A stretch of 64,000 nucleotides of DNA. It comes from Fusicatenibacter saccharivorans. GTDB lineage: Bacteria > Bacillota > Clostridia > Lachnospirales > Lachnospiraceae. Shown here one piece after another: positions 41,153 through 42,287 of this stretch (within the stretch, counting starts at the first letter, position 1; every line of letters begins with the position of its first letter). Where the stretch lies: assembly GCF_015557635.1 (NCBI RefSeq), contig NZ_JADNOP010000001.1:161582-225581 (forward strand), written 5' to 3'. The translations under genes were made by a program, and so were the position numbers. The notes beneath the pieces were generated by a model. It had not been told where the DNA came from. It saw nothing but the letters and a program-made list of their open reading frames with translations, and did no database searches.

Positions 41153-41338
41153 ATGGCAAAGTGTGCAATTTGTGAGAAGGGTGCTCATTTCGGAAACAAC
41201 GTAAGTCATTCACATAGAAGAAGCAATAAAATGTGGAAATCTAACGTAAAATCTGTCAAAGTTAAAGTTGACGGTGTACCGCAGAAAATGTACGTATGTA
41301 CTTCCTGCTTAAGATCCGGAAAAGTAGAGCGTGCATAA
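41153..41338 (+). CDS. rpmB: 50S ribosomal protein L28
   Basis: Small protein of the large ribosomal subunit, 61 residues. It is the zinc-binding form: CAIC at residues 4-7 and CTSC near residues 49-52 form a four-cysteine ribbon. NVSHSHRRSNKMWKSNVK is the conserved core. The start has a near-perfect AAGGAGGTG. The gene stands alone between its own promoter and a terminator, divergent from the Asp23-fakA operon, as in Bacillus. Confidence 0.97.
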   Translation: MAKCAICEKGAHFGNNVSHSHRRSNKMWKSNVKSVKVKVDGVPQKMYVCTSCLRSGKVERA

Positions 41339-41490: not shown

Positions 41491-41639
41491 AAAAAAATAG
41501 CGTGGTCTCTTAAGCTGAACCTGCCAACGATCCATATGCTTAGCAAAAGAAAAAGAGCATCCTACCGAAACTTTCGTTCTGGTAAGACGCCCTCGTCTTG
41601 ATCTATGATATTAGTATAGTTGGCTGATTCATTTAAGAT
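41491..41639 (-). ncRNA. Candidate structured small RNA (about 149 nt), 6S-like architecture
   Basis: A near-consensus minus-strand promoter (41646-41674) faces this region and a run of seven U (41497-41491) ends it. No protein frame is seen. The predicted RNA closes on itself: 41638-41633 pairs with 41513-41508, 41630-41626 with 41521-41517, 41624-41619 with 41528-41523, and 41603-41600 with 41532-41529. An apical arm of 13 pairs (41593-41581 with 41554-41566) is capped by a GAAA tetraloop. Between closing helix and apical arm are two unpaired strands of about 15 and 20 bases. A closed stem, large central bubble and apical arm resemble 6S RNA, but length and sequence do not let me name it. 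It is not SRP RNA. Confidence 0.6.
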
Positions 41640-41645
41640 GGACTT

Positions 41646-41674
41646 ATTATAGCGCAGCTTTCTTCATTTTGCAA
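41646..41674 (-). promoter_or_regulatory. Promoter of the candidate small RNA
   Basis: Minus strand TTGCAA (41669-41674), 17-base spacer, perfect TATAAT (41646-41651). No protein start codon with ribosome site follows, which points to an RNA gene. Confidence 0.75.
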
Positions 41675-41729: not shown

Positions 41730-41876
41730 CTATTCCCCTGTATTGCAGAACAGATGATATCCCACGCACAGCAGCAGAGCGGCCGCAAGAACCGTAAGAA
41801 ATGAGCTGCGGATCATCAGGCTGATGAGAAGCCCGACCCCCATCCAGAACAGCAGAAAACCTAAAATTCTGCACAA
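41730..41876 (-). CDS. Small hydrophobic protein, 48 residues
   Basis: A short frame directly after ytfJ: TTG start at 41876 with AAGGAG (overlapping the ytfJ stop) nine bases upstream, and TAG at 41730-41732. The product is almost entirely hydrophobic, with two likely membrane helices (GFLLFWMGVGLLISLMI, about 6-22, and FLTVLAAALLLCVGYHLF, about 26-43) separated by RSS, and ends NTGE. I do not recognise it. Position in the NUDIX-DUF2953-ytfJ operon suggests co-expression with the sporulation gene. The good ribosome site and clean membrane pattern support a real gene. Confidence 0.6.
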   Translation of the reverse strand: MCRILGFLLFWMGVGLLISLMIRSSFLTVLAAALLLCVGYHLFCNTGE

Positions 41877-41882
41877 ACGAGC

Positions 41883-42287
41883 TTACTCCTTATCCGCCTC
41901 TTGGTTTATTATATGCTCTACTTTCTCTGCGGTATACCCGTCCTCTTCCTTTTTGCCGGTAAAGCGGCTGATCAGATCCGGAGCCATGTCAATGATTTTG
42001 GTGACAGCATCCTGGTTTTTGATGTTGACCAGACGTGTTCCGTTTTTGCTGATGACAAGAACGGCGCTCGGAGAAATTTTTCCGCCCATACCGCCTCCTG
42101 CATTGTTCTTTGCATTTTCTGCGAATGCACCCGCTCCCACGCCGAAGGAAACGTCTACCAGCGGCAGAAGAATCGTATCATCAATGTGGATCGCCTCACC
42201 TACGACCGTCTTTGTTGTGATAAAGCTGTCCATTCCGCGGAACAGTGCTTCTACAGTATTCTGAAATGTGTTGTCCTTTTCTGCCAT
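41883..42287 (-). CDS. ytfJ: GerW/YtfJ-family sporulation protein
   Basis: Protein of 134 residues whose Bacillus relative is needed for spore germination. The N-terminal part is helical (FQNTVEALFRGMDSF). The family core is VVGEAIHIDDTILLPLVDVSFG (about 28-49), then a Gly/Ala-rich loop GVGAGAFAENAKNNAGGGMG and SAVLVISKNGTRLVNIK. It follows the DUF2953 gene by three bases, the same pairing (ytfI-ytfJ) as in Bacillus. The exact action is unknown. The start has GGAGG. Confidence 0.93.
   Translation of the reverse strand: MAEKDNTFQNTVEALFRGMDSFITTKTVVGEAIHIDDTILLPLVDVSFGVGAGAFAENAKNNAGGGMGGKISPSAVLVISKNGTRLVNIKNQDAVTKIIDMAPDLISRFTGKKEEDGYTAEKVEHIINQEADKE

Follow-up and report, generated by a model that had tools for sequence, protein, structure and literature searches.

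The locus and its neighbours

Within the window (the whole stretch of DNA that was analysed, 64,000 nucleotides from Fusicatenibacter saccharivorans), the region of interest is read from the minus strand and lies between ytfJ and rpmB, a position given in an earlier note on this DNA and confirmed by Pfam matches for both neighbours. No sense gene is found close downstream: the rpmB side is antisense and is followed by an Asp23-family gene from 40908. The nearest named loci are from Fusicatenibacter sp. and Lachnospiraceae MAGs, two of them being the same places as in G004 and G005, genomes of the window's genus. No Rfam family reached its gathering score anywhere in the window. The features are as follows (L003 and L005 are the homologous loci of G005 and G004, respectively):

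41153–41338, plus strand: rpmB (ribosomal protein L28; Pfam PF00830), convergent neighbour, outside the RNA
41491–41497, minus strand: U7 run, the 3' end proposed in the earlier note; also in L003, shorter in L005
41498–41544, minus strand: additional 3' sequence that L003 and L005 lack; GCTA at both ends
41545–41554, minus strand: terminator U tract UUUUUCUUUU
41553–41594, minus strand: intrinsic terminator hairpin, 14 + 4 pairs, −24.5 kcal/mol (predicted fold and covariation)
41584–41599, minus strand: alternative hairpin AAGAC-GAGGGC-GUCUU with an ANTAR-like hexaloop (loop 41589–41594), G at position 4
41602–41618, minus strand: conserved core UAUACUAAUA..AUAGA; AUACUAA in 9/9 homologues, AUAGA in 9/9 with variable spacing (by eye)
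41545–41639, minus strand: predicted small RNA of about 95 nt; its start is placed by the −10 box and its end by the U tract
41646–41651, minus strand: −10 box TATAAT, also in L003 and L005
41669–41674, minus strand: −35 box TTGCAA; at the same spacing TTGCAA in L003 and TTGAAA in L005 (by eye)
41883–42287, minus strand: ytfJ (Pfam PF09579), upstream neighbour, outside the RNA
L005 3696, L006 3690, L007 3720, L008 3635 and L009 3642, plus strand: AGACTAACA(T/G)GTCCG element of relatives

Between ytfJ and the RNA there is a membrane-like ORF of 48 aa with a TTG start (41730–41876, minus strand), and ORFs resembling it follow ytfJ in relatives. The element in the last line also stands after ytfJ in relatives, with a terminator-like hairpin behind it; it occurs together with the window-type RNA in L005 and was not seen at the window locus.

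Promoter and predicted extent of the RNA

The minus-strand promoter TTGCAA-17-TATAAT claimed in the earlier note is present (41674–41646). Promoter-like matches as such occur at chance frequency (2 found in a 1-kb stretch, shuffle mean 2.0), and what makes the window promoter credible is that the −10 box and the start region are kept in relatives. The six homologues from two other genera (see below) have TATGAT or TAAGAT at −10, and no good −35 box was seen in them by eye. The region had also been described as free of reading frames, which holds for long minus-strand ORFs but not for a 9-codon ATG frame in the 5' part; this short frame is not kept in relatives (homologue frames compared by eye).

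The whole region down to a run of seven U had been presented as one closed, 6S-like hairpin. The run is indeed there (41497–41491), and the window sequence does fold unusually well (−54 kcal/mol; the mean of 200 shuffles is −34.66, z = −5.01, and none of the shuffles is as good), but this fold is not conserved. Its apical arm has the GAAA loop that was described, with 14 + 4 pairs rather than exactly 13. Followed by the U tract, this arm constitutes a strong intrinsic terminator internal to the claimed unit, one that a simple terminator scan did not list; the earlier note missed this terminator as well as the overlapping hexaloop of nitrogen-leader type. Since the apical arm is itself a strong terminator, the RNA predicted from the sequence is likely to be only about 95 nt long (41639–41545, minus strand).

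Neither of the two nearest relatives has the 3' half of the long hairpin, which confines the closed form to the window. None of eight homologues folds in this way: in predicted folds, pairing of the first 50 nt with positions beyond nt 100 amounts to 29 in the window versus 0–12 in the eight, and the long hairpin was rejected as a conserved element. The stretch that forms the 6S-like closed stem of the window sequence (41544–41498) looks like the 5' part copied in inverted orientation; among 1000 mononucleotide shuffles, 5 reach a match this good.

A divergent 6S RNA, one of the two identities offered in the earlier note, is an extremely improbable reading of the locus. The window sequence folds like a rod, but the rod is absent from the eight homologues and the genome already has a canonical 6S RNA at another place (RF00013, 61.3 bits, over the cut-off, C11:302767–302961, minus strand, corresponding to L001 1501–1695). 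A permissive search of the locus against Rfam gave four unrelated weak families and no 6S match, even at E ≤ 10. It is on these three grounds, i.e. the canonical copy elsewhere, the lack of a 6S match here and a closed hairpin found in the window only, that the 6S reading fails.

Homologues in three genera

The sequences of the window, L003 and L005 were aligned and have in common the −10 box, ATACTAATA, ATAGA, AAGAC and a hairpin with U residues after it. A model built from these three (R1) found, by construction, those 3 of the 7 genomes of the genus at 106.2–131.6 bits, the next match being at 34.2 bits. Over 397 genomes of the family, R1 gave matches at E ≤ 0.01 in 30, including L097, L098 and L099, which possess the common core; L098 and L099 are also convergent with rpmB, a feature unused by the R1 search. 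Adding these three sequences to those of R1 gave model R2 (six sequences), with which matches at E ≤ 0.01 were obtained in 52 genomes in all among the 397; five places were strong (78.0–105.5 bits), one of them new (L209), and the next scored 43.5 bits. Among 116 relatives of G108, R2 matched 17 genomes in all at the same threshold and two more places were new (L232, 66.3 bits; L233, 59.3 bits). The strong R2 matches fall in three genera among 334 sampled.

The resulting nine homologues come from three Lachnospiraceae genera (3/7 genomes of the window's own genus, 2 g91 genomes and 4/5 g103 genomes). The motif AUACUAA is invariant in all of them, and rpmB is convergent in six (window, L003, L005, L205, L206 and L233), synteny not having been used in the search; for L208, L209 and L232, rpmB is outside the stretch examined. 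The gene upstream of the homologues from the other two genera looks, from its sequence, like one for a D-Ala-D-Ala carboxypeptidase. Covariation across Lachnospiraceae, to which the earlier note had pointed, was found: 12 of the 16 consensus pairs of the terminator show two-sided changes with pairing kept (n = 9 homologues). With a core motif and a covarying terminator kept in nine sequences from three genera, the other identity that had been offered, a new family of small RNA, is supported.

By BLASTN over 299 family genomes, the region matched its own genome and three others. L084, L085 (both promoter-like) and L086 (a short match) were discarded; by eye, none of the three has the RNA.

A hexaloop hairpin overlapping the terminator

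In the three sequences of the Fusicatenibacter genus, the terminator shares sequence with a 5-bp hairpin whose six-nucleotide loop has the form RARGGY (GAGGGC in the window, AAAGGU in L003 and GAAGGU in L005). The loop has G at position 4 (G4) in all three, and AAGAC is kept outside the terminator arm in all three. At position 1, the window and L005 have G and L003 has A; G is also found there in 3 of 24 nitrogen leaders (see below). In the window loop G1 and C6 can pair, which leads to a tetraloop in RNAfold. In the finished RNA the hexaloop is buried in the terminator (−24.5 versus −5.2 kcal/mol for the small hairpin). A second hexaloop was looked for by eye at the window RNA and only one was seen; in the six homologues from outside the genus, no G4 hexaloop was seen by eye.

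Hexaloop-on-terminator structure alone is not rare, since a hexaloop of any letters with at least 4 pairs overlaps 7 of the 61 terminator-like hairpins of the window. Nor are the letters alone enriched, because ACRARGGBGT occurs at 57 places in the window's own genome versus 183 for the reversed pattern. Seven of these 57 places passed a loose terminator test: four are clear cases (the window RNA and the leaders of glnA, of the glutamine synthetase III gene, GSIII, and of a membrane-protein gene) and the other three, with stems of 2–3 pairs, look like chance.

Similar switches in leaders of nitrogen genes

Among the R1 matches are many leaders of amt, asnB, GSIII, gltB and amino-acid-type ABC transporter genes (Pfam was used for examples). 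In these nitrogen leaders a short stem carries a six-nucleotide loop, and the 3' strand of the stem doubles as the 5' arm of a terminator. Among 68 R1/R2 places, a nitrogen gene is downstream in 24 of the 35 with a RARGGY loop versus 4 of the 33 without it (Fisher, P = 1.8e-6), which is an internal comparison because gene classes were chosen post hoc and the models contain the motif. The 24 genes are amt (9), GSIII (6), asnB (5), glnQ-type (2), gltB (1) and glnA (1), and the four nitrogen leaders lacking RARGGY carry AAUGGC or GAUGGC. Six reference proteins came from loci having the loop; without these six loci the proportions are 18/29 versus 4/33 (P = 4.5e-5). Duplicates, the window's own place, its two genus homologues, L126, L128, L131 and R1/R2 places without locus sequence are excluded from the 68.

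A check that starts from the genes is free of these two biases: 11 amt copies were identified by Pfam in the seven genomes of the genus, two of the copies being cut inside the gene. A RARGGY hexaloop on a terminator precedes 5 of the 9 copies judged (L194, L195 and L203 by script, L200 and L204 by eye); the switch was not found at the other four (L197, L198, L199, which is that of the window's own genome, and L201). The gltB leader of the window's genome was likewise found to have no hexaloop terminator.

Covariation was also analysed in 21 leaders from other genera, picked for at least 3 hexaloop pairs. Two-sided cells number 17 in the hexaloop stem and 50 in the terminator, with 0 of 500 shuffles as good in each case; two of five measures do not stand out from shuffles in the hexaloop stem (pairs with two-sided changes, 82/500; further pair types, 366/500), nor does one of five in the terminator (85/500).

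Some hexaloop-terminators stand before other kinds of gene. At L150 (G000:C7:13606–13663, minus strand) one precedes a membrane-protein frame, the N-terminal part of which looks out of frame. Those of L259 (1501–1552), L230 and L244 (plus strand) precede genes of the circularly permuted ATP-grasp type, assigned by Pfam for L259 and by similar protein starts for the other two. At L104 (minus-strand match), the hexaloop-terminator AGAC-AAGGGT-GTCT is followed by no sense ORF of at least 100 aa starting within about 500 nt; it is possibly another orphan.

The 21 leaders were used to build a third model, R3, which contains no sequence of the window's genus. Over the seven genomes of the genus its top match is an amt leader (52.6 bits), followed by the homologues of the window RNA in G004 (48.8 bits) and G005 (43.0 bits). 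The window RNA itself scored 35.6 bits, second in its own genome after a terminator with no hexaloop (38.8 bits), the runner-up inside the window being at 17.7 bits; these scores are not independent of the window RNA because the leaders were found with R1 and R2, which contain it. Among the 63 matches listed, 27 places were read and 12 of these have a G4 hexaloop with at least 4 pairs: three are window-type RNAs, three precede amt, two precede genes for a solute-binding protein, one each precedes circularly permuted ATP-grasp, Na+/H+ antiporter and ABC permease genes, and one is at a locus end. At E ≤ 1, R3 recovers just one (16.3 bits) of the six homologues from outside the genus, so that the hexaloop switch is seen only in the window's own genus.

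A possible link to an ANTAR protein

A single ANTAR domain (PF03861) was found in the genome, in a 182-aa protein related to EutV (E = 1.3e-7). Its gene stands after genes that we take to be gltB, gltD and glnA (the glnA-type and gltB names being assigned from the look of the sequences). In another genus (L096), an ANTAR gene is directly before asnB and the asnB leader.

ANTAR proteins are reported to bind terminator-overlapping hexaloops with A1 and G4, mostly before nitrogen genes (PMC3369931). In the EutV–RNA structure, G4 is the sole base-specific contact, the minimal ANTAR site was redefined as one hexaloop and EutV can bind single hexaloops (PMC8934654), but antitermination by EutV still requires two hexaloops in turn (PMC8934654, PMC3369931). 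The same 2022 report calls for further bioinformatics on single-hexaloop sites (PMC8934654).

The reading that we favour, though tentatively, is that of an orphan small RNA whose 3' end may be gated by the nitrogen ANTAR protein. The terminator resembles those of nitrogen leaders and no gene comes after it; production of the RNA itself may therefore depend on nitrogen supply. A stand-alone RNA of about 95 nt would end at its intrinsic terminator and, in the Fusicatenibacter genus, the 5' arm of this terminator could alternatively form the short hairpin with the six-nucleotide G4 loop, apparently the switch type that Lachnospiraceae have before amt, glnA, GSIII, asnB and gltB. Under nitrogen shortage, the ANTAR protein whose gene stands after glnA would bind the nascent loop, the terminator would be blocked and the polymerase would read on, the normal 3' end then not being made. 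When nitrogen is plentiful the short RNA would accumulate, and it would perhaps act through its conserved AUACUAAYA core. A broader proposal, to which we commit ourselves even less, is that Lachnospiraceae have a nitrogen regulon based on single-hexaloop ANTAR switches and that the Fusicatenibacter genus grafted one of these onto the terminator of an older small RNA, in such a way that formation of the normal 3' end depends on nitrogen status.

Gating by the ANTAR protein is suggested by the invariant core and covarying terminator, the hexaloop in all three sequences of the genus, the association of RARGGY loops with nitrogen genes (also when amt was the starting point), the second and third ranks of two homologues in the R3 search and the position of the only ANTAR gene after glnA. 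Against it count the single hexaloop, the G at loop position 1 and its possible pairing with C6, the homologues without hexaloop in two genera, the dependence of R3 on the window RNA, the higher R3 score of a terminator with no hexaloop, the commonness of hexaloops on terminators, the lack of ACRARGGBGT enrichment, and the amt and gltB leaders of the window's genome, at which the switch was not found. Its main rival is an ordinary small RNA with no link to ANTAR, which would work via its core (e.g. by base pairing) and whose terminator would be similar to those of nitrogen leaders by chance or descent. We regard this as unlikely, if still to be reckoned with: the core and the terminator are kept in three genera and the hexaloop was seen in one only, and terminators with a hexaloop-like stem are, taken by themselves, no rarity, but AAGAC outside the terminator arm and loop G4 are kept in all three sequences of the genus, and two of these rank second and third among the R3 matches in the seven genomes.

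It is likewise unlikely, and slightly more so, that the RNA would instead be a sponge, titrating the nitrogen ANTAR protein by analogy with the action of EutX/Rli55 on EutV. A sponge would suit an orphan position with no sense gene directly downstream, and single hexaloops can bind EutV (PMC8934654); however, the loop of the finished RNA is buried in a terminator of −24.5 kcal/mol, against −5.2 kcal/mol for the small hairpin, and no second, free hexaloop was seen by eye. That the locus holds no functional RNA at all, being just promoter-like and terminator sequence between convergent genes, is very improbable: strong R1 matches in just 3 of 7 genomes of the genus and strong R2 matches in three of 334 sampled genera would agree with it, but an invariant core and a hairpin that covaries over nine species would not.

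If the grafted-switch proposal is correct, this small RNA would be controlled by regulated termination, beyond its promoter alone, nitrogen status would be tied to small-RNA 3'-end formation and the locus would offer a compact test system. The collected leaders, which precede nitrogen genes in a major family of gut bacteria, look like single-hexaloop sites, with the window RNA as an orphan case. Among the open-licence PMC papers listed for ANTAR hexaloops, Lachnospiraceae nitrogen terminators and Fusicatenibacter small RNAs, no title or abstract opening describes such an RNA.

Comparison with known systems

With 6S RNA (RF00013) the window RNA shares a rod-like fold in the window sequence only; it differs in having no covariance-model match and in that a rod with a central bubble is not conserved. 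EutX/Rli55 is similar in being a stand-alone RNA with an ANTAR-like element. Unlike EutX/Rli55, the window RNA has no cobalamin riboswitch (no Rfam family at gathering score in the window) and no dual hexaloop, and its loop is buried in the terminator of the finished RNA. The ANTAR-target leaders (eut, nas and ami) differ from the window RNA, for which one hexaloop rather than two was seen by eye, loop position 1 is G and no regulated gene is downstream. As in those leaders, the window has a G4 hexaloop hairpin with a closing C-G pair and a nitrogen theme, the 3' strand of the hexaloop hairpin is the 5' arm of an intrinsic terminator, and an ANTAR protein is encoded in the genome.
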